Shown here: in pieces, positions 17,277 to 36,439 of the stretch | How the letters are laid out: the number at the start of each line of letters is the position of its first letter | Numbering within the stretch: position 1 is the first letter of the stretch | DNA from: Candidatus Alistipes intestinipullorum | Lineage (GTDB): Bacteria; Bacteroidota; Bacteroidia; Bacteroidales; Rikenellaceae | Length of the DNA stretch: 43,781 bases | Assembly (NCBI GenBank): GCA_019113885.1 | Contig: DXGO01000030.1 | Location: 1 to 43,781, forward strand | Direction: 5' to 3' | Position numbers and translations under genes: made by a program | The notes under the pieces: model-generated | Database searches by the model: none | The model's input: the letters and a program-made list of their open reading frames with translations, nothing else | What the model was told of the DNA's origin: nothing

Positions 17277-19109
17277 CTATTCCGCCGGATGCTCGACGAT
17301 CAGACTGCAGGATATCGATTGGTAGTCGGAGTCCGAAACGGGCGCCTCCTCATTGATCTTGAAGAGATACTCGTGTGTGAAGTTGTACCAGGTGAGGCTT
17401 GAACCGTCGCCGTTCTCCTCGTCGTGGGATTTCTGAATGCTTGGCTCCTTGAGCAGGAAATTTTCTTTTTTGATCGGCAGAATAGGCATCTGGTGCTCCT
17501 CGAACGTGTATGTATCCGCATTGAATACCTGGCAGTAGGGATAGTTGACGTCACAAACCAGATTCACCTCGACGCAGTTGTAGACGAGGGTATAGACGAA
17601 ACGGTGGGGGTTGATGACATTTTCTCCCAGATCCACCTCCTGGAACGATGTCGAGACGATTCCGAACGAGTCGATGTCCTCCTGCGAAACGGTCAGGAAG
17701 GGAGGAAGTGCTCCCTCATCGGACGGCCAGATGACGATCTGCTCATAAAAGGTTTGCTCCTTGGTCGAACCGTCTGACATCTTGCTGCGGACCTTTACGT
17801 AGGAGGTGTAGGCATTGTTGCTGGTGTGGTGCACATCGGGGTTTTCTTCCTCGAACGTGTAGGGGAGCGTCCCTTCGTCCACGATTGTCTGCTCGGTCAG
17901 GTGGGTCAGGTATTCGGGCGTGGGAACCGTCTGGGCTCCGTAGTGGAGTTTGTACTCGCAGGTGTAGCTTCCGTCCGATTCACTGGCGACAATCGTGCTC
18001 ACACGGCCATTTCCGTCGAACGTGTAGGTATAGGTCGTGGCATCTCCGTAATTGTTTTCCCGACGGGCGGGGAGGTTCTTCACATGGATGCCGGTCATCC
18101 CTATGATCATGTCGGTCTCGGTAATATCCGTGATCAGGGAGGCTCCGATGTCGATGCCGTTCCACGAGTTGGAATAGTCGGTATAGGTAAAGGTCTCGCT
18201 TTCACGATCCTTGTCATTGCCGGAGGTGACGATGTTCGTCAGATTACCCTCCTCCCAGGTCAAGGTCGACTGGTAATTGGCTTCAGGATAACCAGGATTG
18301 ACGTTCGTGATGCTTGCCAGGGTACCGTCGGCGTTGTACGAGTAGGTGCGGTTGTCCCCGTCCGGATCGGTGTATCCGGAGAACAGCCCGTCTCCGTTCA
18401 GGAGGTAGTCCATCTCCCAGTTCGATACCTTTGAGGGATAGATCAGGTCGCCGTCCGCAACGGAACCGTTGAGGTCGAAGTCACGGTCGCTCAGCGTTAC
18501 CTTGTCCGAGCCCCATACGACTTCTGTGGTGTAGGAGGAGCGGATTTTATCCTGGATATCGCTGTCGTACGAATAGTATTCGAACTTGGTCAAACGGTTT
18601 TTGTCGTCATAGGACAGGGTTGCATAATTCCTGTACTGATACTCTTCCGAGTCCGTTTCGGTGATCTCGATGTAGGTGAGAAGGTCCTCGGGAGCGACCT
18701 CCGGATATCCGGGCTCCTCGGGCTCTTCGGGTTCTTCTGTCGCATCGCTGCCACGTTGCGTGACGGTCACCGTCACTTTGTCGCTGCCGCTGACGATGGT
18801 GATAACCGCTTCTCGTTCTTCGCTGTCGGTGTTCTCGGCGAGTGTGACCTCAATTTCGTTCGTTCCGGCTTCTCCCGAGGTAGGGTAGATCGATATCCAA
18901 TCTTCAGCGCGGGTCTGCTTGACGGAGGCCGTCCAGCTTTGGGTGGTTTCGAAATGGATCGTGTGGTTGACAGCTTCGGGATCGATCGAAGCTGTGAGCT
19001 CATTGGACGGGATCAGAATGGTTTTCTCCTCATCCGGATCGCTTTCACTGCAATGGGTACTCACGAATGCCATGGCCAACAGAGCCATCAGGGATAAAAT
19101 CTTTTTCAT
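17277..19109 (-). CDS. Lipoprotein with N-terminal BACON domain and DUF4595/YD-like repeat region
   Basis: Lipobox (AFVSTHCSE); BACON-type segment ending VTVTQRGSD; repeats such as YSYNADGTLASITN and YTYTFDGNGRVSTIV. Confidence 0.75.
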   Translation of the reverse strand: MKKILSLMALLAMAFVSTHCSESDPDEEKTILIPSNELTASIDPEAVNHTIHFETTQSWTASVKQTRAEDWISIYPTSGEAGTNEIEVTLAENTDSEEREAVITIVSGSDKVTVTVTQRGSDATEEPEEPEEPGYPEVAPEDLLTYIEITETDSEEYQYRNYATLSYDDKNRLTKFEYYSYDSDIQDKIRSSYTTEVVWGSDKVTLSDRDFDLNGSVADGDLIYPSKVSNWEMDYLLNGDGLFSGYTDPDGDNRTYSYNADGTLASITNVNPGYPEANYQSTLTWEEGNLTNIVTSGNDKDRESETFTYTDYSNSWNGIDIGASLITDITETDMIIGMTGIHVKNLPARRENNYGDATTYTYTFDGNGRVSTIVASESDGSYTCEYKLHYGAQTVPTPEYLTHLTEQTIVDEGTLPYTFEEENPDVHHTSNNAYTSYVKVRSKMSDGSTKEQTFYEQIVIWPSDEGALPPFLTVSQEDIDSFGIVSTSFQEVDLGENVINPHRFVYTLVYNCVEVNLVCDVNYPYCQVFNADTYTFEEHQMPILPIKKENFLLKEPSIQKSHDEENGDGSSLTWYNFTHEYLFKINEEAPVSDSDYQSISCSLIVEHPAE

Positions 19110-19228: not shown

Positions 19229-19278
19229 TATAATTTTATCTTGAATGGGCAGATTTGGAAATTTATTTTAGCATGAAA

Positions 19279-19310
19279 CCGGGAAGTACATAACTACATG
19301 TACTTCCCGG
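19279..19310. terminator. Intrinsic terminator ending the SusCD/S8 locus
   Basis: Perfect 13-bp stem CCGGGAAGTACAT/ATGTACTTCCCGG followed by AT-rich sequence on the minus strand. Confidence 0.8.
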
Positions 19311-19369
19311 CTTTGCAAATACAGAATGAATGTCGCATCCGGCGATCCGGAAGCGCTGCCGCTGTGTCG

Positions 19370-19867
19370 CTATTCTTCGTCCTTCTCCGAGTCGATTTCC
19401 TCCTTGAACAGGTCGAGAATTTCCTGCGGAACGCCGTCGCAACGCTTGTAGAGCGAGACATTGTCGGCATTGTCCGTAGCAATCCACGTCATCCGGTCCG
19501 TATAGAGGTTGCGGATGACGTAGCGGCTTGTCCAGTCGCCGTTCTCGTAGTCGTACATGCCGCGGATCACCGAACCCAGCGATTCGTCTGTGTAGAGATT
19601 ATAGGAGCCCGTAATGCGTCGCGGGCCGAAGCTGTCGAGGTTCTGGTAGATCGTGAACCTGTTGCCGTCGCGGTACGAGAGCTCGATATACACGTAGCTT
19701 CCTTCGGCCAGAGCTTCGCCGTTGTTCCACGTCTCGAGCTGCCATGTGCCCGAGATGTTGTAGAGCGAGACGTCGAGTCCCGGGTCTACGTAGCTGTTGT
19801 CTTTCTCGCAGCTTGCAAACGTCGTGGCAACCAGCAGCAGGAGGGTGAGTTTCAGTAAATTTTTCAT
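19370..19867 (-). CDS. Small lipoprotein, lipocalin-like
   Basis: Lipobox (TTFASCEKD); beta-rich ISGTWQLETWNNGEAL...; start at MKNLLKLTLLL. Confidence 0.7.
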   Translation of the reverse strand: MKNLLKLTLLLLVATTFASCEKDNSYVDPGLDVSLYNISGTWQLETWNNGEALAEGSYVYIELSYRDGNRFTIYQNLDSFGPRRITGSYNLYTDESLGSVIRGMYDYENGDWTSRYVIRNLYTDRMTWIATDNADNVSLYKRCDGVPQEILDLFKEEIDSEKDEE

Positions 19868-19874
19868 ATCGTTG

Positions 19875-20705
19875 TCAATTTTTGTTCTGTTTCGTGTCGT
19901 CGTTGTCGGGTTGGATGCGGATCGTGATGCTGCTCTGTCCGGGGGAGAGCCCCAATCCCTGCAGGATGAGGGGAACCCGTTGCGGTGCACGTCCGGCGGA
20001 GGGGTCGAAGCGAACGGTCAACTCGCCCAATTCCCCGGCTTTCAACTCTTCGGGCAGGAATTCCGCCTCGATGCACGGGGGCAGGAGCTGTTTGTCGACC
20101 TTGACCCGCAGTGTCGCATCGCCTGCATTCAGGCATTCGATCCGTTCGGTGCGGAGTTCCGTCCCGTCGAAATGAATTTCCTGCTGTTTGAGCAGCAGCG
20201 ATCCTTTCGCATAGGGATAGGCATAGGTCGGGCGTGTCGAGGGGATCACCTGTCCCGAGAGCTCGAGTATTGCCGTAGGGGCATTCGCCGCGAGTTGGGT
20301 AAAGAGGAAGATTTTGCGCAGGAAGTGCCCCGGATGGCCTTTGGGGTGATAGGTCACCACGACTTTGCCGTCTTGCCCGGGATTGACCGGTTGGCGGTCG
20401 TAGGTGGCCACGGCACATCCGCAGGTACTCTTCACGTGCGTGATGACCAGCGGCTCGTCGCCCGTGTTCCGCCATTGGAACGTGTAGCTTTTCGGCCCGC
20501 CGTCCTCATCGATCTCCCCGGTGTCGATCCGGGTCCGCTCGAAAGCCATCGCCTTGCTGCCCGGTGCAAGCCCGGGGTTGGCCAGGCTGTCGAGCAGTGC
20601 TCGCGACACAGTACGTATCTGGCCCTGCACCGGGGCGGCGGTCAGAAGAACCGTCGCCGCCCCGAGCGGGAACAGAAGGTGCCGTATGACGCTTTCGATC
20701 CGCAT
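19875..20705 (-). CDS. DUF1573 domain exported protein with a second Ig-like domain
   Basis: FQWRNTGDEPLVITHVKSTCGCAVATYDRQPVNPGQDGKVVVTYHPKG is a typical DUF1573 motif; signal peptide; start at MRIESVIRHLLFP. Confidence 0.8.
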   Translation of the reverse strand: MRIESVIRHLLFPLGAATVLLTAAPVQGQIRTVSRALLDSLANPGLAPGSKAMAFERTRIDTGEIDEDGGPKSYTFQWRNTGDEPLVITHVKSTCGCAVATYDRQPVNPGQDGKVVVTYHPKGHPGHFLRKIFLFTQLAANAPTAILELSGQVIPSTRPTYAYPYAKGSLLLKQQEIHFDGTELRTERIECLNAGDATLRVKVDKQLLPPCIEAEFLPEELKAGELGELTVRFDPSAGRAPQRVPLILQGLGLSPGQSSITIRIQPDNDDTKQNKN

Positions 20706-20721
20706 GCCCGTCGTGTACCCG

Positions 20722-22821
20722 TCAGAGCCAGCCGCTGCCGTTGGCCGACTTGCGCACGGTAATGTTGAACTTGTGCGTTTCGTTGTTGCTCGAGGTGATC
20801 GAGGCGGTCGTAGCACCCTCCTTCACTCCGGTGAAGATGGCCTTTCCGTCCTTGATCTCGCCCGTGGCGATCGAGGTGTCATCGATCGTGAGGGTGTAAG
20901 TCAGCGACTCTCCGTCGACGAAATAGCGCGACGGGGTTTCGATCACCTTGTTCTCCTCGCCTACGCCGAGGTAGATGTTCGGGAACGAGACTTTCGACCC
21001 GGCATCCTCTCCGGCAATGGCCGCGAGGAGCATCTCGGCATCGGTCATGCCTCCCACGCATCCGTAGTACTGGGACAGCGGAATGCTCGTATAGCGGTTT
21101 TTGCCGATTTCCGTGACGTAGAAGTAGTAGTACTTGGTTCCGACCTGGTAGTCGTCAATCGGCCGGACGCTCTCGACAAGCAATTTGCGGAATTCGGCGG
21201 CCGTGAAGTGTTTGCGGAGTTGCACGGCATAGGAGAGGCCCAGCGCTGCGACGCCCGAAACGTGCGGGCAGGCCATCGAGGTGCCCTCCATGTAGCCGTA
21301 TTCGGTGCCGCTGCTCACCTGCGGGGGCAGTGTCGAGAGGATGCAGCCGACGGCTCCGCGCGGATGGTCGTTGTCGAAGAACTCGAAATAGTAGTCCTGG
21401 TCGCCTCCCGGAGCCGAGATGTCCGTGAACTCTCCGTAGTTCGAGAAGGTCGAGATCGTGTAGTCAGGGGCTGTGGCGTTTACCGAGATGCAGTATTCGG
21501 CAGCTCCGGGGAATCCGCCGGCTGCGGCGTACTCGTTGCCCGAGGCGAAGATCGGAATACCGCCCTCGATCGGCCCGTTGGGCGACCCTGCGTTGTGGAC
21601 GAAGTAGTCGAGAGAAGCCTTCTCCAGCGGGCAATAGGTCTCCCACTCCTCCTCGGTAGCAAAGCCGGGGGTATTCTCATAGCCGTTGGCGGCACTCGAG
21701 GTGTAACCCCAGCTGCACTGCAGGATCACGGCGCCGTTGTCGGCCGCATACTTGATGGCGCGGGCCAGGCTTACCGTGTTGCTCGAAGAGTTGCCCGAGA
21801 ATATCTGGCACGACATGACCTTCACGCCCGGATTCTGCTCCGTACCACCGGCAATCGAGGCGATACCGATACCGTTGTTGTTTCGGGCGGCGATGACACC
21901 GGCTACGTGTGTTCCGTGTCCCGTGTCGGCCGAAGCGTCGCACGAGACGATTCCCGTATTGTTGATGAAGTCATAGCCGTGGTAATCGCCGGCATATCCG
22001 TTTCCGTCGTTGTCCTTGTGCGAGCCGTAGACCTCGTCTTCGTTCACCCAGATGTTGTTGATCAGGTCGGGGTGTCGCCAGTAGATGCCTTCGTCGAGCA
22101 CGGCCACGATGATCGACGGATCACCTGTCGTGCGCTCCCAGGCCTTCTCGCAGTTGACGTCGGCTCCGGCAACGAACTTCGCTTCGCCAACCTCGGTGTC
22201 CTCATCGGCGCCGATGACGTAGTTGGCCTGATAGCCCGAATTGATGATGTTCCACTGCCACTGGAGCAGGTTGTCATTGTAGACGTATCCGTTGGCCCCG
22301 TTGGCGCGTGTGGCAGCCCCGTTGAGCAGGTTTGCCGAGAGTGGAATGGCTTTGCGATCGGTGCGGTAGGCACGTTTGATGGTACGGTTGGGCGCGGCGG
22401 TTTGCACTTCACCGAGTTGCGAAAGTCGTGAGATGACATCCTCTACGGAGTGGTCCTCGCTGAAACGCACGACATACCACAGGTGCAGGCCGGCTTCGCG
22501 TGTCCGCTCTTCGGTGCGTTCGTCGAGCGGGAAGATGCGTTCCACCTCACAATCGCCGAGCAGGTCGAGTACTTCGTCGACCGAGAGGATGCCCGATCGG
22601 GTAGCGGCCGCGCCGCTACGGGTCTTTGCTGCGCCCAACTCATCGAGCATATCGCTGACGTAGGGGGCGAATTTTACAATGACCTCTCCCGACATCTCGA
22701 CCGGTTCGGTCCCTGTTTCGGGGGTCGTTGCAGGTTCGTTAAACTCCTCTGTGGAGCAGGCGCTTAAGGCGATCAGCATAAGGGCGCTGAAGGCCGAAAC
22801 AAGATATTTGTTTATTTTCAT
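20722..22821 (-). CDS. S8 (subtilisin-like) serine peptidase lipoprotein with C-terminal BIG2-like domain
   Basis: Lipobox (LIALSACST); triad motifs VAVLDEGI, GHGTHVAGVIA and GTSMACPHVSG; C-terminal TSIATGEIKDGKAIFTGVKEGATTASIT resembles BIG2. Confidence 0.92.
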   Translation of the reverse strand: MKINKYLVSAFSALMLIALSACSTEEFNEPATTPETGTEPVEMSGEVIVKFAPYVSDMLDELGAAKTRSGAAATRSGILSVDEVLDLLGDCEVERIFPLDERTEERTREAGLHLWYVVRFSEDHSVEDVISRLSQLGEVQTAAPNRTIKRAYRTDRKAIPLSANLLNGAATRANGANGYVYNDNLLQWQWNIINSGYQANYVIGADEDTEVGEAKFVAGADVNCEKAWERTTGDPSIIVAVLDEGIYWRHPDLINNIWVNEDEVYGSHKDNDGNGYAGDYHGYDFINNTGIVSCDASADTGHGTHVAGVIAARNNNGIGIASIAGGTEQNPGVKVMSCQIFSGNSSSNTVSLARAIKYAADNGAVILQCSWGYTSSAANGYENTPGFATEEEWETYCPLEKASLDYFVHNAGSPNGPIEGGIPIFASGNEYAAAGGFPGAAEYCISVNATAPDYTISTFSNYGEFTDISAPGGDQDYYFEFFDNDHPRGAVGCILSTLPPQVSSGTEYGYMEGTSMACPHVSGVAALGLSYAVQLRKHFTAAEFRKLLVESVRPIDDYQVGTKYYYFYVTEIGKNRYTSIPLSQYYGCVGGMTDAEMLLAAIAGEDAGSKVSFPNIYLGVGEENKVIETPSRYFVDGESLTYTLTIDDTSIATGEIKDGKAIFTGVKEGATTASITSSNNETHKFNITVRKSANGSGWL

Positions 22822-22835
22822 GGTGTCTCAGTTCG

Positions 22836-24590
22836 TTATCTGCCCGAAGTGTCCGTGGTATCATCGGTGCTTTCGGAGTCTTCGGACGACGTGTTGGCGA
22901 GTTTTTTCTTGGTGTATATCTTGTAATACTCGTTCAGGTTTGCCGGGACGTTGGTGAAACCTGCAAGATTTCCCAACTTGTCCTTGCCCTCCTGGTTGAA
23001 GACCAGCGCGTAGGGATCCCACCAGTCGAGCGACGGGTGCAGGAGCAACCATTGGGGAAGTTCGCCCGTCAGACGGTTGAGGTTCAGGGCAAGGCTCTTC
23101 AACTGCGGCATTACGCGTTTTACTTCGAGCATCTTCCGTGGAAGCGTATCGTTACTCTTGGCGATGTCCTCCTCGGTGTAGAATCCGATCTCATCGTCAT
23201 CCTCGAACGAGGGAATTTCGCCCTGGAGGTAGTTGACCGAAAGAATCAGCGTATCGAGACCCGTGACCTCTTCACCATTCGTATTGGTTTTGTGCTCCCA
23301 CTTGAACAGCCGTGAGGGGAAAGGTTGGATCTGGTCATCACGGTACGTTTCTTCATAGAGGCCTCCGAAGCCGGTCGAGGTAGTGTTGCTGAGGTCGTAA
23401 ATCAACCTGCGCTGGTTGTTGAGCATTCTCAGCACGTGCAGTTTCGGGAAGTTGTCGGGGTTGATGACTTCCGGAACTTTTTCGAAGTTGTTGCTACCCA
23501 GGTCGAGGTATTCGAGGTTACGGAGGTTCTTGAAGTCCTCATGGAGCGAGGTCAGACCATAGGCGCCGATCGTAAGGCGCTTGAGCTGCGTGAGCTTGCA
23601 GATATACTCGCCTGTATCGAGGTTCAGCAGGAACGTGTTGGTGTTGCTGTAGAACTCCAGCTCCTCGGCGGCGGTCAGGTATTGCACTTCGTAGGGAATT
23701 CCCTCCTTGGTCGAGAACATGAAGAAGCGGGCGGACTTGACACGGCCTTTCAACGATTCATTGTATCCTTCCATGCCCTCTTCCCAAAGGGTCACGCCGT
23801 CCCAGTTGTCCATTTTATCTCCCGAGCTTTCCCAGTCGGAGGCCCAGACGGCGAGCGTGCGGGCAATGCCGAGCAGTGCCACGGAGTCACCGGCACGCGA
23901 ATCCTCTTCGATCTTTTGGGCGGCACTCTGTGTGATGACGAGTTTATCGTTCTGTGCGAGCATGTCGGAGGTCACGCCTTCGGACGTCGGTTCGAAGGTG
24001 ATCTCGGCGATACGGTCTTCGGGAATCGAGTTGATGCCCCAGTTGATGCGAAGATTGACCTCGCGCGGACGCAGTCCGCGATCGAAGACGAGTTCACCCT
24101 TCTCTACGTTGATCCAGCTGGCGACCTCGTCAGGAACCTTGACGTCGAAATTGACGTTGGTCTTGACCTGAACATCCACATAACGCTTGTCGATTGTAGC
24201 ATAGTTTTCGATGCTGACAGCCGATTCATCGAGTGTGATGGCGTAGTCGAAGCCCTCCTGGGTGATCTGTATTTCCTTATAATCAGAGCTGTTTTCAGCT
24301 TTGGCGATACGCACTATGCCGCTGCGGGGCTGCGAGGTGAGGGCCGAGTCGATGATCAGGCTGCACTCCTTGCTGCCTTTTCCGTTTGCGGGAGATACAG
24401 TGACCCAAGGCACGGTGGACGAAGCCACCCAGTTGTCGCTTGAGGACACCTTGATGCGTTGGGTTCCGCCTACAGCCTCGATGGTAATCGTATTGCAGTC
24501 GATGCCGAAGGCAACGGTCTCGTCGTTGGTGCAACCGATCATGACGGTTGCGGCGAGAAGTGACGATGCGATATAATTCAGTATTTTCAT
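22836..24590 (-). CDS. Lipoprotein with BACON-type Ig domains and leucine-rich repeats
   Basis: Lipobox (ATVMIGCTN); BACON-like KVSSSDNWVASSTVPWVTVSPANGKGS...; LRR-like LRNLEYLDLGSNNFEKVPEV. Confidence 0.8.
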   Translation of the reverse strand: MKILNYIASSLLAATVMIGCTNDETVAFGIDCNTITIEAVGGTQRIKVSSSDNWVASSTVPWVTVSPANGKGSKECSLIIDSALTSQPRSGIVRIAKAENSSDYKEIQITQEGFDYAITLDESAVSIENYATIDKRYVDVQVKTNVNFDVKVPDEVASWINVEKGELVFDRGLRPREVNLRINWGINSIPEDRIAEITFEPTSEGVTSDMLAQNDKLVITQSAAQKIEEDSRAGDSVALLGIARTLAVWASDWESSGDKMDNWDGVTLWEEGMEGYNESLKGRVKSARFFMFSTKEGIPYEVQYLTAAEELEFYSNTNTFLLNLDTGEYICKLTQLKRLTIGAYGLTSLHEDFKNLRNLEYLDLGSNNFEKVPEVINPDNFPKLHVLRMLNNQRRLIYDLSNTTSTGFGGLYEETYRDDQIQPFPSRLFKWEHKTNTNGEEVTGLDTLILSVNYLQGEIPSFEDDDEIGFYTEEDIAKSNDTLPRKMLEVKRVMPQLKSLALNLNRLTGELPQWLLLHPSLDWWDPYALVFNQEGKDKLGNLAGFTNVPANLNEYYKIYTKKKLANTSSEDSESTDDTTDTSGR

Positions 24591-24604
24591 GTTTCCGTAG
24601 CTTA

Positions 24605-27349
24605 TTATTCGAGCATAGCGGGGCAGTTGATAATATTCTGCGACTTATCGTAGGTGAGGTTGAATGCACCAGCTTGCCAATAGTAGCAGATGTCCGAAGC
24701 ATCGAACGTGATATTGGGGTTGTCGCTGATGTCGAGGTTGTAGATCAGGTAGGAGATTGTGTCGTCGATCTTTCGCAGGTCGTTCGATCCCAGGAACAGC
24801 CCTCGCAATCCTGTGTGCTTGTAGATACCCGTAGGCCACTCGCGCAGGCAGCGCGAACCGTCGTCGGCACGCTGTCCGCGGACGGCGTAGACGGTCAGGC
24901 TAAGGGCGTCGGTCGGGTTCCAGGGGAACTTCGAGAAGGCGTTGTACGAGAAATCCACTCCGTAGAGATAGGGGAGGTTCCCGGCATGGAAATCATCCGG
25001 TAACTCTGTCAAGCGGTTGTAGGTGAGGTCGATCGAGATGAGATTGGCCAGATTCTCGGGCTTTGTCGGCGTGAAGCAATCCTTTTCGAAGGAGGTCATG
25101 CCGTTTCCGCTGAGGATGATGTAGCTGATCTGCGAATTGCTTTTCACCATGCAGGCGGGATACTCCTTGATCTGGTTCCCTGACAGCGTGAAGGTCGTGA
25201 CATTGATTCCTTGATACTTGCCGTTCTTACCGTTTTCGAATCCTTCGATCTTGTTATAGGCCAGGTTGACACCCGAAAGATAGTAGGGGGTATCGCTGGT
25301 GAAGATGTCGGGCACCTCCGTGAGTTGGTTGTACGAAGCGGAGAAGGTATCAAGGTTATCGGTGTTGCAGAAAATCTGACGTTTCCCGTCGGGAGTTGCA
25401 ACCGTCTTAAATTTCGTGATCTGGTTGTTGTCGAAATAGAGTTCCGAGGGCATAAAGTCGTTGCCGAAAGCCTCGACTTCGCCAGATATCTTGTTGTTCG
25501 ACAGGTCGAGCAGTCCGAGGCGTTCCATGCCGGCGATCTCTTTCGGTATCGAAGTCAGGTTGTTGTCGCGGACATAGAGCATCTGGATCACGTTTTTCGA
25601 GTTTCCGGTTGCAAGGTTCCTGATGGTGCGCTGCAGTTGCTGGTCTTCCCATCCGGGGATGGTGCTGGTACCTGCATTGCAGGAGATATTGACCTGGACA
25701 AGCGCCGGCATGTCCTTGACCTCATCGGGCAGGCCGTTCAGGTAGGGGCAGTTGTAGATTTCGAGCAGCGTGCACGAAGAGAGCTTTCCGATCTCCTTGG
25801 GCAACTCCTTGATCGGGCTGTTGCCGAGGTAGAGGTACTCGAGCTTTGTCAGGTTGCCGATCTCGGCAGGCAGGCTTTCGAGGTTGTTGCAGAAGCGTCC
25901 TGCGATTACATCCTTGGGCTCGATTTCGAGGTGACGTCCGGTTTTGGCGTCAATCAACTCCTGCTCGGTGTATCCCTGCTCGTAGAGGGCCATGGCAGGG
26001 CTGGTGAGCCCGTTCTCCTTGAGCGCCAGCGCACAAGGGTAGGACATCTGAGGCATGGGGTGAATAGCCTGCATGTACTGTTTGTTGTACTCCATGCGGT
26101 TGCGGTTGCGCTCTTCGAGCGACTTCGACTGATCGAGCATCGGATCATACGTCCCGGTATTCGTGTCGTTGTGGGTGCCGAGGTAGAGCTCGACCAGCTC
26201 GGTGAGCTGTCCGAGAGCCTTCGGCATTTTGCCGCTGATACCGAACTCACTCAGCACGAGCTTGGCCACGCGGCCGTTGGAGTGTATCTCCACGCCGGGT
26301 TGGTCGCTCCACAGGTCGGGCGACTTGTTGAAGTCCCAGTTGCAGCCCTTGTTGTAGTCCTGACCGCCGTAGTACCAGTTGGGTCCGTCGAGGGCCAGCC
26401 AGATTTCTCTCAGGGCATAGTTGTCCTTCATGTATTCGTCAGCTTCGTAGAGCTTGATGGAGACATTGGCTTCGGTCGTTTTGTTGTCTTCGACCGTGAA
26501 GTTCCACTTTTCGGGGAGTTTGTCGGAGCACTCTTCGAGCAGGTCTTTGTTGGTGTCGTAGGTTGCGTATCCGACGATCTCGTAGGTCGCTGCGGGCAGC
26601 GAGAAGAGCGAGTCGCAGGAGATCGACGAGGTTTGGTATCCGAACTCGTCGCTTTCGACATCGTCTTCATCGAAATGGATAGAGAAGTCAGCCTTGAGTT
26701 TGGAGTAGGTAATGTTCTCCTTGCTGGTTCCGACCTCGTGTATGATGACGTCGAAATAAGCGATCTCATCGAACATGTATTCGCGTTTCCGGTCGAGGGC
26801 GCGAGTACCGTTACCGGGCATGTTTTTGAATTCGGAGATGTCTTTCAGCACGTTGAAGCGCACTTTGCCGCGGGGGGTTACCTTCGCCGTGAGGTTGTGG
26901 GAGGTAAGGCCTCCGGCCACGACGGTCAACATGTTGTTCTCGGTGGTACCGCGGTAAAGTTCGTTGTCGAGGACATCGTAGAGGATGTATGAGACAATCT
27001 GGTACTCTCCGGCCAGAAGTTGCAGTTTGTCACTGCGGAGGCCGAATTCTGCGCTCTCCTTGTCAGCGTAGTTAAGCGTAAGGGTCTGGGATATCTGAAT
27101 GTCGCCCGAGAGCAGGCGGATTTCCAGTTTGCAGGCGTCCGACAGGTAGTCGAGCTCGTCCACTGCGCGGGTTTTAAGATCGGTGCTCGGATCGACGGGT
27201 TCCAGTCCCTCCTTGTAGAGTTTGAACTGTACGTACCCGTAATCCGATTCGCGGTTGTCGATACCGTCATCGTCGGTGCAGGCGCCGGCAAAGAGGGCCG
27301 CGCAGCAGGCGACGAAGGCGAATATTACGTTGTTTTTGAAAAGTTTCAT
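24605..27349 (-). CDS. Large leucine-rich repeat lipoprotein (DUF4458-like N-terminal region)
   Basis: Lipobox (AALFAGACTD); at least nine LRR units (LTKLEYLYLGNSPIKELPKEIGKL, MERLGLLDLSNNKISG, LISIDLTYNRLTELPDDF). Confidence 0.85.
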   Translation of the reverse strand: MKLFKNNVIFAFVACCAALFAGACTDDDGIDNRESDYGYVQFKLYKEGLEPVDPSTDLKTRAVDELDYLSDACKLEIRLLSGDIQISQTLTLNYADKESAEFGLRSDKLQLLAGEYQIVSYILYDVLDNELYRGTTENNMLTVVAGGLTSHNLTAKVTPRGKVRFNVLKDISEFKNMPGNGTRALDRKREYMFDEIAYFDVIIHEVGTSKENITYSKLKADFSIHFDEDDVESDEFGYQTSSISCDSLFSLPAATYEIVGYATYDTNKDLLEECSDKLPEKWNFTVEDNKTTEANVSIKLYEADEYMKDNYALREIWLALDGPNWYYGGQDYNKGCNWDFNKSPDLWSDQPGVEIHSNGRVAKLVLSEFGISGKMPKALGQLTELVELYLGTHNDTNTGTYDPMLDQSKSLEERNRNRMEYNKQYMQAIHPMPQMSYPCALALKENGLTSPAMALYEQGYTEQELIDAKTGRHLEIEPKDVIAGRFCNNLESLPAEIGNLTKLEYLYLGNSPIKELPKEIGKLSSCTLLEIYNCPYLNGLPDEVKDMPALVQVNISCNAGTSTIPGWEDQQLQRTIRNLATGNSKNVIQMLYVRDNNLTSIPKEIAGMERLGLLDLSNNKISGEVEAFGNDFMPSELYFDNNQITKFKTVATPDGKRQIFCNTDNLDTFSASYNQLTEVPDIFTSDTPYYLSGVNLAYNKIEGFENGKNGKYQGINVTTFTLSGNQIKEYPACMVKSNSQISYIILSGNGMTSFEKDCFTPTKPENLANLISIDLTYNRLTELPDDFHAGNLPYLYGVDFSYNAFSKFPWNPTDALSLTVYAVRGQRADDGSRCLREWPTGIYKHTGLRGLFLGSNDLRKIDDTISYLIYNLDISDNPNITFDASDICYYWQAGAFNLTYDKSQNIINCPAMLE

Positions 27350-27369
27350 AGAAAACCTTGTCTTGTAAA

Positions 27370-27385
27370 CTCTTTAATTATAGTT
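27370..27385 (+). repeat. Left arm of 16-bp inverted repeat (CTCTTTAATTATAGTT)
   Basis: Exact reverse complement occurs at 29148-29163, flanking the DUF5003-like gene. Confidence 0.85.
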
Positions 27386-27391
27386 TTTTTG

Positions 27392-27430
27392 AAAACAGGG
27401 CCCCGCCCCATTCAACGGGGCCCTTGTTTT
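27392..27430. terminator. Strong intra-operon hairpin terminator downstream of the DUF5003-like gene
   Basis: GGGCCCCG (27398-27405)/CGGGGCCC (27416-27423) with AAAACA/TTGTTTT flanks extending the stem. Confidence 0.75.
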
Positions 27431-27455
27431 TCATGCGGTCAATAAGTGCCTCGGA

Positions 27456-29129
27456 TCAATAGTTACGGATGCAGATAACACGTGCAACGACACCATCGCC
27501 GTAGGGGGTCATTCCATAGAAAGCAAGCGATCCTTTGTCTCCCTTTTGGCCGACATCTCCGTATCCCTCCATGGAGATCATGCAGGTACCGTCTTCCATA
27601 TCCATGAACACCAGCCATTCGTTGCCGTAGGGATTGGACATGACTTGAGTGTACTCGCCGCTCAATGTCAGCATCAGCGAACTTTGGCTCATGGAGAGGT
27701 TATTGTAAGTCAGACGATAGAGTTTGGCTCCCATCTCGATCTCGCCGGCAAACTCTGCAACATCCGGATCGGTGTTGGGATCTCCGTCGGTCAGATCCTC
27801 AAATTTGAAGTATCCGTTCTGGAGGTAGTAATTGGTCATGAAATCATTCGGATAGCCGAGCGTGAATCCATCTTCGCCACCTTCATCGCTGTTTCCGGCT
27901 TGCTCGACGGTAGCAAAGATATACTGCTTGTACTCCTCCTTGATGTCCGTGAAACCATCTGCTATGATGTCGGACGGATCTCCTTCGGGAAGTTTGCTTT
28001 GGGGAATGGCGAGCAATATGGCTGTACGGGCGTCTCCATCGTTCTCTGAAACCGTAATCGAGTAGTCGCGTTTCTGGAACAACTCGTCGCTTTCATCATC
28101 CCATTTGTCCTCGAACTTAATCCACGAATTCAAGCCGGATATGATCGTATATGTATCGTCTACAGCATAGAATGAGAGTCCCTTGGTGCTGGATACGGAA
28201 CCATCGAAAGAGTCTCGCTCGACATCCGTTCCTGCCGTTTGGGTAGCGTATTTGCCATTGGCCTGGAAATTCAGCGTCTTATTCTCGGGAATGTCATAAT
28301 GGCGGACAAGATCACGGGTTGCCGGCACCTTGAAGTAATACATGTTGTGCGTATTGTTGCCGGGGTCTTCGTCCTTGCCGACCGAGGCGTCGTAGAAATC
28401 AATTCCGATCGTGGTGCCATCGAGAATCTCCTCGGTGGTAAACTTGATGTCGAAACGGACCTCCTTCGAGTTATTATCCCCGTCAACGTCCACTTCACGG
28501 GCTTTAATGAACCACCCCTCGGCTTCCTCGGGAATGTTGATGAGCCAGGAGAAGTTGCTCGTGGCCTTGAACACATACTCCAGTGCTCCGTTGTACGTCC
28601 AGAACATCTCGATCGGGGAGTCCTGGTTGTTTTTCGCCTCCGGAGTTTCGTTATAGATACCGGGATTGAAGAGTTGTCCGTACTCGTCGAATTCGACCTG
28701 GTAGATATCGAACTGGCGCTCGGTCGTTCCACGGGTGATCGTAGCGATTACCTGCGTCTGGCCGCCCATCGTCAGCGATACTTCGCAACTCGGGGTGGCA
28801 TCGAATTCCACCTGATCGGTCGTGGCGATCGTGACGGTTACGGGGTCCTTGCTTGCTTTGCCCTGGATCGAGGTAACCGAAACTTCGCCGTCGCGCAGTT
28901 CGAACCATTTGGAGGTTTCGGGATCGGTCGGGATGCTGATCGTCCAGTCCATGTTCGGCGTGAACGTTACGGGACACGTGGTCTCACCTGCCGGGATGGT
29001 TAGGCTCTGAGGCTCCGGAAATTCGGGGGTGACAACTTTTTTATCTTCGTTGTCCTCATTGCACGAGGTGGACAATACTGCAACGCTCGCCAACAGAACC
29101 GATGCCCAGTGTAGAATCATTCTTTTCAT
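27456..29129 (-). CDS. Lipoprotein, DUF5003-like, with N-terminal BACON-like Ig region
   Basis: Lipobox (AVLSTSCNED); SLTIPAGETTCPVTFTPNMDWTISIPTDPETSKWFEL; 557 aa from MKRMILHWAS. Confidence 0.7.
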   Translation of the reverse strand: MKRMILHWASVLLASVAVLSTSCNEDNEDKKVVTPEFPEPQSLTIPAGETTCPVTFTPNMDWTISIPTDPETSKWFELRDGEVSVTSIQGKASKDPVTVTIATTDQVEFDATPSCEVSLTMGGQTQVIATITRGTTERQFDIYQVEFDEYGQLFNPGIYNETPEAKNNQDSPIEMFWTYNGALEYVFKATSNFSWLINIPEEAEGWFIKAREVDVDGDNNSKEVRFDIKFTTEEILDGTTIGIDFYDASVGKDEDPGNNTHNMYYFKVPATRDLVRHYDIPENKTLNFQANGKYATQTAGTDVERDSFDGSVSSTKGLSFYAVDDTYTIISGLNSWIKFEDKWDDESDELFQKRDYSITVSENDGDARTAILLAIPQSKLPEGDPSDIIADGFTDIKEEYKQYIFATVEQAGNSDEGGEDGFTLGYPNDFMTNYYLQNGYFKFEDLTDGDPNTDPDVAEFAGEIEMGAKLYRLTYNNLSMSQSSLMLTLSGEYTQVMSNPYGNEWLVFMDMEDGTCMISMEGYGDVGQKGDKGSLAFYGMTPYGDGVVARVICIRNY

Positions 29130-29147
29130 AAGGCTTTGCATTTTTTG

Positions 29148-29163
29148 AACTATAATTAAAGAG
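29148..29163 (-). repeat. Right arm of 16-bp inverted repeat (AACTATAATTAAAGAG on + strand)
   Basis: Exact reverse complement of 27370-27385. Confidence 0.85.
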
Positions 29164-29170
29164 AATGGGA

Positions 29171-30142
29171 TTATTCGTTGCTGTCTTGCGACTCCTCCGG
29201 GGCTTCCGGTATGCGCGCTCCCGACATGTTCTCTTCCTTCTTAAGTCGTATTGCCTCTTCGAGCGAAACCCATTCGAGGATGTTGTAGAAGTTACCTACG
29301 TTTCCGACCATCGTGCCGAGGTCTTTCAGATAGACATACAGCCAAATGGCAGCAAAACGCTGGCAGGTGTTGTAGTAAGAGACGTAGTAGGGGCTTACGG
29401 TTCCCAGAATTTTGTTGTCGGCATTGATCTGTCCGAAAACCATTTGTTCGTCACTCAGCACCTGATCCTCGTCCATCTCGACAAGCGGCTCGGCCGGGTC
29501 GTCCGTATTCAGACGCATCGTTACGTCATACCCGTCGTAAAGGAAGTCGTGCAGGATGATCGTGTTGGGTTCCGTCGGGTGCTTCTCGGTGAGAATCAAC
29601 CGCTGGTAGTTGGTATCCAGCGCACTCGGATACTCGTAGAGCATCAGCGAGGTCACCACGCACCAGCCGGTGAAGGTATCCTCCTCGTACGGGCATCCCT
29701 TATAGAGGATGACTTTCGATGTGTTGTAATCGGAATAGAGTCCTTTCCATTCCAACTGCTCGGGCATCACCAGCTTGAGGATGAAGCCCAATGAGTCGGT
29801 ATCCTGAATGTGGTCGTAATAGCCGGCCACCTCGACATTGGCTGTCCGTTCGCCGGCCTTGATCGTGACGGTGTTGGAACGCAACCGGTAGTGGTAACCC
29901 TCGATGGCCGAGCTGCCCTGATCGATGATTTCGACACCGATCGTGCGGTCGTAGTCGCATGCTACGGTCGAGGCGATCGGAACGTTGAAATACCCTCCGT
30001 CGGCGAAGACCATGTTGGTCGACATCGTGTCGGCGAACATGATATACTCCCCGCCCGAATAGGTGGTTCTCTCCGAGTTACAACCCGTAGCGAGGATTCC
30101 GGCGAATCCGGCCGCTAACAGCAGTGTGGTAATTCGTTTCAT
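29171..30142 (-). CDS. SusD-adjacent lipoprotein, DUF4843/DUF4984-like
   Basis: Lipobox (GILATGCNS); YIMFADTMSTNMVFADGGYFNVPIA plus EGYHYRLRSNTVTIKAGERTANVEV; directly downstream of susD. Confidence 0.65.
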   Translation of the reverse strand: MKRITTLLLAAGFAGILATGCNSERTTYSGGEYIMFADTMSTNMVFADGGYFNVPIASTVACDYDRTIGVEIIDQGSSAIEGYHYRLRSNTVTIKAGERTANVEVAGYYDHIQDTDSLGFILKLVMPEQLEWKGLYSDYNTSKVILYKGCPYEEDTFTGWCVVTSLMLYEYPSALDTNYQRLILTEKHPTEPNTIILHDFLYDGYDVTMRLNTDDPAEPLVEMDEDQVLSDEQMVFGQINADNKILGTVSPYYVSYYNTCQRFAAIWLYVYLKDLGTMVGNVGNFYNILEWVSLEEAIRLKKEENMSGARIPEAPEESQDSNE

Positions 30143-30169
30143 GGTTCGTATCTGTTTGTCGTTGTTTCG

Positions 30170-31684
30170 TTAGATGTTGCTTTCGTTCGGTTCGATTTCC
30201 GATCCGGGCGCTTCGAGTTCGTGGCGAGGAATGGGCCATACGAAGCGCGGGTCGTCGGCTTCGATCTTGAGCGAGCTACCCTCGGGGAGCGAGTTCGTCT
30301 GCGGGGTGCGCTCGAATCCCATCTGCCAGCGCTTGAGGTCGTTGAGGCGGAAACCCTCCATGTAGAGCTCGCGAACGCGTTCCTGGGAGATGGTCTCGAG
30401 CCAGTTGCTCTGGCTGACGGTGATGGCTCCGGCGCCGCCGCTGAAACGTTTCGAGCGCAGCGTGGTGAGGTCCTTGCTTGCGGCCGAGTAGTTCGGCGTC
30501 GGGAGGTTGCAGTAGGCCTCGGCGCGGATCAGGTACTGTTCGGCCAGGCGGAACAGTTTCGGCATCGAGTACATGTACATATTCTTCGCCGAGGAGATGA
30601 GGTTCATGTTGCCGAAGTACTTGTTCAGCAGGGGCCACGTCAGTCCGTTGGCGTATCCGGTTGTGTACTCCTTGAAGTAGATGTCGTTGCGCAGGTCGTT
30701 GCTGACGTACAGGTCGAGTACCCACTGGGCTGGCACATAGTCGGGATAGGTGTACATGTAGTCGCGGTTGGCGTTGAGGAACACCTGCCCGAGGGCGCCT
30801 CCGTAGGAGGTCGTGGTGTAGCCGAGCAGCCAGATGATCTCGAAACTCGAATCGTAGTTCCACATGTAGCTCAGGTAGGTGTCGGTCGAGGTGTAGGAGA
30901 CCGTTCCGTCGGCCAGTGTGAAGGTCTTGTTGCCGATGACCTCCGATGCATAGTCGATGGCCGTCTGCCAGTCCTGCATGTAGAGCGCTACGCGGGCATG
31001 CAGGGCCTGGGCGGCGGCAAGCGTGACGTAGAGCGAATTGTACGTGTTGTCGTCCTCGTCGAGCAGCGATTCGGCCGCTTTCAGGTCATCGATCACAAAC
31101 TGGTAGGAGGCTGCGAGGGAGGCGCGTTTCATGGGCTCCGGCTCGGAGTACTTCGAACGCAGCACGACACCCAACTCATTTTCTGCCGTTGCGGGGTCGT
31201 AGGCCTTGCAGAAGCACTCGAGGAGTTTCGAGTAGCAGAGGGCTCGGATCATGTGTACCTCGCCGGTGTATACGTCGAGGTTGTCGATCTTCTCGACGTC
31301 GGTCTCCTGAGCCTTTACCTGATCGATGCGCTCGAGGAAGAAGTTGCATCGGCTGATGATGGTGTAAAGGGCTGCGTAAACCGATTCTACATCGGAGTCG
31401 GTTGAGAGGATGTTCCACTGCCAGATCGGGCCGTAGACATTCGAGAAGTCCTCGACGGCATAGACAAGGTCGGCCTGGATGTCGGGCATGACGGTGAGGT
31501 TCCCGCTGAAGAGCGAGCTGCTCAGCAAGCCCGCATAGATGCCGGTGACGAGCTGTTCGGCATCGTTGTAGGTCTGCATGGCCTCATCCTCGGGAATGGA
31601 CGATTCGGGGAATTTTTCGAGACACGACGTCGTCCCCGCGAGCAGCAGCAACGCTGCAAGATAGTATTTGATATTTCGTAACAT
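30170..31684 (-). CDS. RagB/SusD family nutrient-binding lipoprotein
   Basis: Lipobox (LLAGTTSCLEKFP); SusD signatures (EQYLIRAEAYC, LRSKRF, ISQERVRELYMEGFRLNDLKRW). Confidence 0.95.
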   Translation of the reverse strand: MLRNIKYYLAALLLLAGTTSCLEKFPESSIPEDEAMQTYNDAEQLVTGIYAGLLSSSLFSGNLTVMPDIQADLVYAVEDFSNVYGPIWQWNILSTDSDVESVYAALYTIISRCNFFLERIDQVKAQETDVEKIDNLDVYTGEVHMIRALCYSKLLECFCKAYDPATAENELGVVLRSKYSEPEPMKRASLAASYQFVIDDLKAAESLLDEDDNTYNSLYVTLAAAQALHARVALYMQDWQTAIDYASEVIGNKTFTLADGTVSYTSTDTYLSYMWNYDSSFEIIWLLGYTTTSYGGALGQVFLNANRDYMYTYPDYVPAQWVLDLYVSNDLRNDIYFKEYTTGYANGLTWPLLNKYFGNMNLISSAKNMYMYSMPKLFRLAEQYLIRAEAYCNLPTPNYSAASKDLTTLRSKRFSGGAGAITVSQSNWLETISQERVRELYMEGFRLNDLKRWQMGFERTPQTNSLPEGSSLKIEADDPRFVWPIPRHELEAPGSEIEPNESNI

Positions 31685-31700
31685 ATTCGTTCGCATTCGT

Positions 31701-34646
31701 TTAGAACATAAGGTCGAGGCCGAAGGTGAATTGCCGCGACATGGGGTACTGAGCCTGGTACATGTTGCCCACGCCTTCGGGGTCGAGTCCCGAGAATCCG
31801 GTGAAGGTCAGCAGGTTCTGGGCCTGGGCATAAATCTTCAGGCCGCTGATGAACCGGGTTTTCCGGATCAGGTTCTCGGGGAACGTGTAGCTGAGCATGA
31901 GGTTTTTCAGACGCATGAACGAGGCATCCTCGAGCAGGCGGTCGTCGAACTCGGTGTAGACGCCGTGGCGCGGGATGTCGGTGATGTCGCCCGGCTGTTT
32001 CCACCGCTCGAGCAGACGACGCGACTGGTTGTAGGTGCTGAAGCGGCCGTTGGACTCATCGAAGTAGCGGTCGTTGTTCATCATCCAGCGGTCGGCCACC
32101 CACGAGAACTGAGCCGAGAGCGAAATGCCCTTCCACGAGAGGGTGGTTCCGAAACCTCCGGTCCAGGGGGCGTTCATGCTTTTGCCGACGAGTACCTTGT
32201 CCTCGTCTCTCATTTCGTTGGTGATTTCGCCATCCTTGGTGTACCACAGGGCGTCTCCGTTGGTGGGGTTGACGCCTGCGAAACGGTTGACGTAGAATTC
32301 GCCCGAGTCATGGCCCACTACGAGTTTCATCGATGTGGAAGCCATTTCGTACTCCTGGACGCCGTTGTAGAGTTCGACGATCTTGTTCTTGTTGTACGAG
32401 AAGTTGGCGTTGACCGTCCAGAAGAACTCCTTCGTGGCGAGAACGGTCCCCGAGAGGTTGAGCTCGGCACCGCGGTTTACCATCACGCCGATATTGCTCC
32501 AGCTGTATCCGTATCCCTTGTTGGCATACGATTCCGGTACGAGCATGAGCATGTCGGAAGTACGCTTGTTGTAGAACTCGAGGTCAACATTCAGGCGGTT
32601 CCAGAATCCGAGGTGGAAGGCGAGGTTCGTTGTCCAGAGTTTCTCCCATCCGAGGTCGTCGCTGCCCGGCTGGCTGGGCGCGATACCTGCGTCCCCGAAG
32701 TAGTTGAGGCCTCCGCTCACGAGGGCGAGGTGCTCGTAGTTGGGGATCGAGGAGTTACCCGAGGTACCGGTGCTGATGGCGATCTGAGCGTTGGTCAGCC
32801 AGCGGCGTGTGCCCTCCATGAAGGCTTCGTCGCGCAGGTTCCACATGAAACTTGCCGACCAGAAGCCTGCCCACCGGCGGTTGGCGCCGAAACGCGACGA
32901 GGCGTCGGCGCGAAGCGAGAAGTCGGCGTAATAACGGTTGTCGTAGTTGTATTCGCCACGGCCGAAGAACGAGAGGTAGGCGTAGTCGTCATCGGTGGTG
33001 TCACTCCACGACGAGACGCGCGTACCGTTGGTGATGTTGACGAGTTTGTCGTTGTTCTGGCCTTCGGCGAGGAGCGTGAAGGCCTCATAATGGTAGTCGA
33101 CGCCCTCCTGTCCGACGAGGAAGTTGAACGAGTGTTTCCCGTTTACGCGGAACTGGTAGTTGGCCGTGTTGGTCACCGAGAGGGTGAGGCCTTCGGTCGA
33201 CATGCGCTGTGCGCTACCCTCTTCGAGGTTGGGGGCGTAACTCGGGGTGGAATTTCCGAAACCTGTCATATGGGAGTAGTCGACATTGAACTGCGACTTG
33301 ATCGTAAGGCCCTCAATAGGAGCCGCTTCCGCGAAGATGCTCGATACGATCTTGTATTTCTTGTATTCGCGGCGGTTGTTTTCAAGCCATTCGAGGGGGT
33401 TCTGGCCGTCACCCTTCCACGAACCGTCGTTGACCGAAGCCAGCGATCCGTCGGGATTGTAGGGATTCCAGTAGGGGAGCATGAAGCGTGCAGCCGAGAT
33501 GGGCGTCACGAGGGTATACTCGCCCTCGTCGGCCTGTTCGATGCCCTGGTAGTTGAGCATCGTGTTGGTGCCGATCTTGAGCCACTTGGCAGCGCGTTGT
33601 TCGATGTTTGCGCGGATGGAATAACGGTCGAAGTTCGAACCCACGGCGATACCATCCTGGCTGTAGTAGCCTCCCGAGACGTAGTAGTTGGTCTTTTCGG
33701 TGGCGCCGGAGATCGAAATCTCGTAATTTTGGAGCATCGCGGCATTGTTGTAGACTTCGTCGAGCCAGCAGACATCGGTTTTGCTCAGCAGGTCGTAGTC
33801 TTTGCCCGAGGTAAGTCCGATCTCCTTTTCATATTGAATGCGCTCGGCGGTGTTCATCAGGTCCCAGTTGCCCTTTGCCAACTGCGAGAATCCCAGCTGC
33901 ATGCGGTAGGTGATGTTGGGTTTCTCGGCCATTTGTCCGCGTTTGGTGGTGATGACCACCACGCCGTTGGCGGCACGTGCGCCATAAATTGAGGTCGAGG
34001 AGGCGTCCTTGAGGACCGAGATCGACTCGATGTCGGCGGGGTTGATGGCGTTGAAGTCGGCGCTGGAGATAGCGATGCCGTCGAGGATGAAGAGCGGTGC
34101 GGTTCCCGAGTTGATGGAGTTGGTACCGCGGATGCTGAGGGTGGCGGCGACGCTGGGCTCACCTGAACTGGAGAGGACGGTCAGACCGGGGACCTGTCCC
34201 TGGAGGGCCTGGTCGAAGGCGGCCGTGGGGGTCGATTCGATCTTTTCGGCCTTCACGGTCGAGACGGACCCGGCGATGGTTCCCTTCTTGCGGACGCCGT
34301 AAGCGATGACCACCACGTCGTCGAGGGCCTGTGCCTCGGGTTGGAGAGCAACGTTGTGGGTCAAGGCCCCGGATCCTTCGGGAACGGTGAACTCGACGGT
34401 TTGGAATCCGATGTAATGATAGGAGAGAATTGTTCCGGGGGTTACCGAGATCGAGTACGATCCGTCGACGAGCGTACTGACACCGGAGGCGTTTCCGGAA
34501 ACCACGTGTACCCCGATCAGAGGTTGATTATCCTCTGCGGAGGTGACGATTCCGCTGACCGTGACGGTTCCCCCCCCCTGAGCCAGGGCAGGTAAGGAAC
34601 ACAGCAGGAAAGCGAATTTCAGGAGTAGAAATTTGGTTTTTTGCAT
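31701..34646 (-). CDS. SusC/RagA family TonB-linked outer membrane protein
   Basis: Carboxypeptidase-regulatory-like N-domain, then ALDDVVVIAYGVRKKGTIAGSVSTVKAEKIES and ASSTSIYGARAANGVVVITTKRG; 981 aa. Confidence 0.96.
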   Translation of the reverse strand: MQKTKFLLLKFAFLLCSLPALAQGGGTVTVSGIVTSAEDNQPLIGVHVVSGNASGVSTLVDGSYSISVTPGTILSYHYIGFQTVEFTVPEGSGALTHNVALQPEAQALDDVVVIAYGVRKKGTIAGSVSTVKAEKIESTPTAAFDQALQGQVPGLTVLSSSGEPSVAATLSIRGTNSINSGTAPLFILDGIAISSADFNAINPADIESISVLKDASSTSIYGARAANGVVVITTKRGQMAEKPNITYRMQLGFSQLAKGNWDLMNTAERIQYEKEIGLTSGKDYDLLSKTDVCWLDEVYNNAAMLQNYEISISGATEKTNYYVSGGYYSQDGIAVGSNFDRYSIRANIEQRAAKWLKIGTNTMLNYQGIEQADEGEYTLVTPISAARFMLPYWNPYNPDGSLASVNDGSWKGDGQNPLEWLENNRREYKKYKIVSSIFAEAAPIEGLTIKSQFNVDYSHMTGFGNSTPSYAPNLEEGSAQRMSTEGLTLSVTNTANYQFRVNGKHSFNFLVGQEGVDYHYEAFTLLAEGQNNDKLVNITNGTRVSSWSDTTDDDYAYLSFFGRGEYNYDNRYYADFSLRADASSRFGANRRWAGFWSASFMWNLRDEAFMEGTRRWLTNAQIAISTGTSGNSSIPNYEHLALVSGGLNYFGDAGIAPSQPGSDDLGWEKLWTTNLAFHLGFWNRLNVDLEFYNKRTSDMLMLVPESYANKGYGYSWSNIGVMVNRGAELNLSGTVLATKEFFWTVNANFSYNKNKIVELYNGVQEYEMASTSMKLVVGHDSGEFYVNRFAGVNPTNGDALWYTKDGEITNEMRDEDKVLVGKSMNAPWTGGFGTTLSWKGISLSAQFSWVADRWMMNNDRYFDESNGRFSTYNQSRRLLERWKQPGDITDIPRHGVYTEFDDRLLEDASFMRLKNLMLSYTFPENLIRKTRFISGLKIYAQAQNLLTFTGFSGLDPEGVGNMYQAQYPMSRQFTFGLDLMF
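34570..34578 (-). repeat. G9 homopolymer in susC coding sequence (C9 on + strand)
   Basis: CAG GGG GGG GGA encoding Q-G-G-G directly after the predicted signal peptide (..LPALAQ|GGGTV). Confidence 0.9.
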
Positions 34647-36064: not shown

Positions 36065-36439
36065 ATGCTTGAAAAAGGACTTTCGGCCCGGAGCGATACG
36101 ACGGTTTCGGAGCAGAATACGGCCGCTGCGATGGGTTCGGGCGACCTTCCGGTATTTGCCACCCCGGCGATGGTGGCGTTGATGGAGAATGCCGCGATGA
36201 CGGCCGTGGCGCAGCATCTTCCCGAAGGGGCGACGACGGTCGGAGCCGAGATGAACGTCTCGCACATCAAGCCTTCGGCGCTGGGGGCCGCAATTACGGC
36301 CACGGCCGTGTTGACCGAGGTCGAAGGGCGCCGGCTGGTTTTCAACGTCGGGGCGCGCGATGCCGAGGGTATGATCGGCGAGGGGGTACATGTCCGCTAT
36401 GTCGTCGACCGGGAGCGTTTCATGGCCAAACTCCGTTGA
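36065..36439 (+). CDS. Hotdog-fold thioesterase family protein (FlK-like)
   Basis: 124 aa; FATPAMVALMENAAMTAVAQHLPEGATTVGAEMNVSHIKPSALGAAITATA pattern. Confidence 0.8.
   Translation: MLEKGLSARSDTTVSEQNTAAAMGSGDLPVFATPAMVALMENAAMTAVAQHLPEGATTVGAEMNVSHIKPSALGAAITATAVLTEVEGRRLVFNVGARDAEGMIGEGVHVRYVVDRERFMAKLR

Follow-up and report, generated by a model that had tools for sequence, protein, structure and literature searches.

We analyzed a cluster of nine genes in contig DXGO01000030.1 of Candidatus Alistipes intestinipullorum; the whole stretch of 43,781 nucleotides is referred to here as the window. The cluster comprises nine open frames that run along the minus strand from 34646 to 19370 (Table 1), exactly where a sequence-only reading had placed nine co-directional genes. 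The families named in that reading were recovered for SusC, SusD, DUF4984, LRR, BACON+LRR, S8 and DUF1573; the DUF5003-like assignment did not hold. The translations place the likely starts of the DUF1573 and small lipoprotein genes at 20705 and 19867, respectively. The hairpin described at the end of the cluster is present, but the gaps between genes, put at mostly 7-41 nt, include one of 106 nt (27350-27455) that lies outside this range. Pfam and NCBIfam searches of the nine products detected no glycoside hydrolase, polysaccharide lyase or sulfatase domain, and the S8 serine peptidase was the sole recognizable enzyme among these products, both as previously proposed. Sus-like polysaccharide utilization loci have a similar layout, in which surface lipoproteins and an enzyme come after the SusCD pair. 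Here, however, the enzyme is a peptidase, and the carbohydrate-active enzyme encoded with SusCD by which such loci are recognized is absent from the nine genes.

Table 1. Genes, hairpins and repeats of the nine-gene locus (window coordinates)
Feature	Position	Strand	Basis
SusC/RagA-type TonB-dependent transporter, 981 aa	31701..34646	-	TIGR04056; best solved relative RagA
SusD/RagB-type lid lipoprotein, 508 aa	30170..31696	-	PF07980, PF14322; RagB and other SusD-like structures
DUF4843/DUF4984 lipoprotein, 323 aa	29171..30142	-	DUF4984 1.8e-40
Inverted repeat copy 1, before BACON/Ig gene	29148..29163	+	AACTATAATTAAAGAG on + strand
Variable multi-Ig/BACON-like lipoprotein, 561 aa	27456..29141	-	BACON in homologues; all-beta model
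Terminator-like hairpin inside operon	27392..27430	-	-25.8 kcal/mol; core CCCCGTTGAATGGGGCGGGG at 27401-27420
Inverted repeat copy 2, between hairpin and LRR gene	27370..27385	-	16-nt perfect pair
DUF4458 + LRR_10 + LRR lipoprotein, 914 aa	24605..27349	-	Pfam; solved LRR relatives
BACON + LRR lipoprotein, 584 aa	22836..24590	-	Pfam
S8 (subtilisin-like) peptidase lipoprotein with prodomain, 699 aa	20722..22821	-	PF00082, PF16361 (Peptidase_S8_N)
DUF1573 protein, probably exported, not lipoprotein	19875..20705	-	PF07610
Small lipocalin-4-like lipoprotein, 165 aa	19370..19867	-	PF13648 0.0038, below Pfam cut-off
Hairpin closing gene cluster	19276..19313	-	94% complementary 16-nt arms, 6-nt loop

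Neither an ECF/anti-sigma pair nor a hybrid sensor was found among the flanking genes scanned, which make up part of the genes in the window. Just past the final hairpin and on the same strand lies a gene for a BACON and RHS/YD-like lipoprotein (17277-19109). The SRP54 (Ffh) gene is at 15716-17047. The minus strand of positions 1-98 encodes the Bacteroidales small SRP RNA, cut at the window end. Upstream of the locus, on the opposite strand, is a FlK-type (fluoroacetyl-CoA thioesterase-like) gene (36065-36439).

Most homologues of the SusD, DUF4984, BACON/Ig, LRR, BACON/LRR, S8 and small lipocalin-4-like proteins (65/70 for the last) carry a lipobox, which is rare in the DUF1573 family (8/71 homologues). 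Acidic residues often follow the lipobox cysteine in these lipoproteins; such residues resemble the surface-export signal of Bacteroidota lipoproteins, and display at the cell surface is predicted. The 914-aa LRR protein matches two solved LRR proteins, 4eco (E 5e-109) and 4ecn (E 1e-153), the latter of which we take to be BT_0210. The predicted structure of the DUF4984 protein (pLDDT 81) has as its nearest folds nutrient-binding and putative carbohydrate-binding lipoproteins of Bacteroides, BT3507 and a DUF1735 protein among them. The model resembles two-domain auxiliary nutrient-binding lipoproteins, a resemblance of kind only because the TM-scores are low.

The 561-aa product, the one called DUF5003-like, matches no Pfam or NCBIfam family, and BACON was the only Pfam family found among its homologues (4 of 16 aligned), so the DUF5003 label is unsupported. 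Its model is all-beta, a string of beta domains. A fold search with this model gave nothing beyond generic tandem-Ig matches (TM about 0.2), and neither this protein nor the DUF4984 protein has significant sequence relatives in the PDB. The 561-aa protein is encoded by the most variable of the nine genes, with 24-52% identity in relatives, and is a fast-evolving BACON/Ig-type lipoprotein.

A genome scan recovered 80 loci from Alistipes, other Rikenellaceae, Tidjanibacter, Cryptobacteroides and further Bacteroidales. All nine genes occur in order in 53 of the 57 loci with room for every gene; one exception, L054, fails because another SusC was matched downstream. The BACON/LRR, S8, DUF1573 and small lipoprotein genes are each present in 68/68 loci that extend far enough downstream, SusD and DUF4984 each in 62/62, SusC in 61/62 and the variable BACON/Ig gene in 59/62. 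Since the order is kept in dozens of species, it is not due to chance, and the nine-gene locus is real and widespread in Alistipes-like gut bacteria. The LRR protein was present in 91 of 200 genomes of the family and in 6 of 295 sampled genomes of the order, the window's own included. Of these six genomes of the order, G008 and G258 keep all nine genes, and in G008 (L009) an additional 888-aa lipoprotein-like gene directly follows them. G121, G078 and G182, which are from other families, have SusC-SusD-DUF4984-LRR-BACON/LRR without a local S8 gene.

The 106-nt gap, between the BACON/Ig and LRR genes, contains a strong hairpin and a T-run. Co-transcription of the nine genes without a break therefore cannot be assumed. 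The core of this hairpin (CCCCGTT-loop-GGGGCGGGG) is conserved while its lower stem varies, compensatory changes were seen at 5 of 11 pairs across 22 loci, and the core was found once in the genome. No known RNA family matched it at the gathering threshold. Its terminator-like form suggests attenuation or a break in the transcript.

A perfect 16-nt inverted repeat flanks the BACON/Ig gene, as would be expected of an invertible segment, and no further copy was found in the genome, even allowing two mismatches. The pair is kept at both places with ≤2 mismatches in 9 of the 10 closest relatives, the tenth ending at a contig edge. Some more distant loci have a related motif at both ends, and many loci are without the repeat motif. 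Repeats combined from different loci of that distant group match each other about as closely as those from a single locus; therefore, a conserved motif explains the repeats as well as strict covariation does. None of the 69 loci compared had the BACON/Ig gene inverted. With no inverted state and no other copy of the repeat, we rejected DNA inversion as the main reading; the repeats may serve in inversion, in forming an mRNA duplex or as paired binding sites. The BACON/Ig gene and the hairpin might form a discrete switchable module bounded by the inverted sites, which would permit DNA inversion or a long-range mRNA duplex for message cutting, so that one surface receptor could be swapped or tuned apart from the transporter and protease; we regard this as unlikely.

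Upstream of susC, a dyad (RTTAC-N5-RTAAY) was considered and set aside, as it occurs in only 4 of 61 relatives. Palindromes like TTTGTACTTTAGTACAAA or TTTTACATAGTAAAA occur upstream of susC in several other loci (L048, L057, L058 and L062, and also L041, L060 and L080) and in many relatives directly precede a TAnnTTTG promoter-like box. They were not seen in the window's own clade, and are a possible operator for an unlinked regulator.

We compared the SusC protein with solved transporters. It belongs to the SusC/RagA family (TIGR04056, 786.6 bits against a cut-off of 368.25), and RagA of Porphyromonas gingivalis (PDB 6sli and related) is by far its nearest solved relative (594 bits, followed by the SusC homolog 8aa4 at 388 bits). 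As controls we took three further SusC proteins, from about 26 encoded in this genome; they adjoin putative nucleoside- or sugar-utilization genes, as judged from the starts of the sequences. All three favored glycan transporters, with scores to 8aa4 and RagA of 534 and 311, 500 and 221, and 433 and 259 bits. Therefore, affinity to RagA is not general to the SusC proteins of this genome. The locus SusC, which ranks RagA above the glycan SusC proteins, is specifically RagA-like, a sequence affinity that is no proof of substrate. RagB is among the best matches of the SusD protein to solved structures.

RagAB takes up peptides cleaved by gingipains (PMC11817032), and a SusC clade of polypeptide type, with P. 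gingivalis among its members, has been reported (PMC7661554). The locus differs from RagAB in its nine genes, which add LRR and BACON lipoproteins and an S8 peptidase, whereas in P. gingivalis the peptides come from the gingipains. Of the two precedents for peptide import cited in the sequence-only reading, RagAB thus proved near. The other, the SusCD pair BT2263-BT2264 of Bacteroides thetaiotaomicron, is discussed as a peptide carrier in work cited in PMC11817032, but a score of 130.7 bits led us to reject close kinship of the locus SusC to BT_2264.

The S8 domain of the peptidase (PF00082, 144 bits) contains the Asp-His-Ser triad, and the catalytic positions in the motifs VLDEG, GHGTH and GTSM are invariant in 19 sequences; the enzyme looks active. 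It is encoded by the sole S8 gene detected in the genome, which is 84.5% complete. Separation of the S8 and LRR genes from SusCD in close relatives would have counted against the original proposal: they are linked within the family, where the S8 gene is locked into the locus, but in G121, G182 and G078 no S8 gene is local. Because the transporter/LRR core persists there, S8 may be an accessory of it.

As an annotation the locus was already known, since B. thetaiotaomicron has orthologues at BT0207-BT0213, where a published table lists SusD, DUF4984, BACON, S8 and DUF1573 (PMC10434189) in the same order, compared here by annotation alone. We found no functional study of BT0207-BT0213 in the literature searched. 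A role in iron was considered from the same source and rejected, as P values for the orthologues (0.08-0.57) were not significant and no substrate was indicated. A B. thetaiotaomicron mutant of BT_0212, the S8 orthologue by annotation, still cleaved EspB, the one proteolytic activity assayed in it (PMC6282197). Redundancy is likely, given 35 putative secreted proteases in that species (PMC6282197). The mutant demonstrates that EspB cleavage does not depend on this enzyme alone, and is silent on nutrition.

Taken together, a protein- or peptide-utilization locus built on a RagAB-type SusCD transporter seems the probable identity of these genes. The RagA control comparison strengthens this sequence-based reading, and the invariant S8 triad and the lipoboxes also favor it, while the S8-less core of distant relatives, the distance to BT_2264 and the retained EspB cleavage of the BT_0212 mutant count against it. 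BACON and DUF4984-like domains also occur widely in glycan loci. SusCD could import a glycan or glycopeptide with carbohydrate enzymes encoded elsewhere, S8 only stripping protein off a glycoconjugate such as mucin. The putative carbohydrate-binding lipoproteins among the nearest folds of the DUF4984 protein would fit such a role, but the lack of a carbohydrate enzyme among the nine genes and a SusC that sides with RagA, unlike the control transporters, make it somewhat improbable.

The tight linkage of S8 with the LRR and BACON/LRR genes, together with the occurrence of the transporter/LRR core without local S8 in distant relatives, would also be consistent with a processing role for S8, in which it trims the surface lipoproteins encoded beside it while SusCD imports some other small ligand. 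However, there is no cleavage-site evidence for such trimming, and the LRR proteins stay recognizably similar in loci with and without S8; we consider this account quite improbable. Least credible, with only a slight chance of being correct, is a locus that is chiefly an adhesin set, whose LRR lipoproteins bind host or microbial surfaces with nutrient import secondary. It would draw on the two LRR products, on LRR domains as binding modules and on an NCBIfam match, far below cut-off, to a fibronectin-binding leptospiral LRR family, but LRR similarity is generic and the SusCD genes head the cluster in nearly all relatives.

Under the peptide-utilization reading, the LRR, BACON/LRR and BACON/Ig lipoproteins would grip a protein, or a matrix made of protein, on the outer surface, and the S8 peptidase, a lipoprotein that would become active once its prodomain is lost, would cut it there. 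The RagB-like lid and RagA-like barrel would then import the oligopeptides with TonB energy, and the DUF1573 protein and small lipoprotein may assist in or near the outer membrane. A further matter, prompted by the conserved internal hairpin and the inverted sites, is how operons of this kind balance transporter against receptor. Glycan foraging is what gut Bacteroidales are mainly known for. If this reading is true, a conserved locus that couples a RagA-like transporter to a surface protease and LRR receptors of its own would open protein foraging at the cell surface to direct testing in B. thetaiotaomicron.
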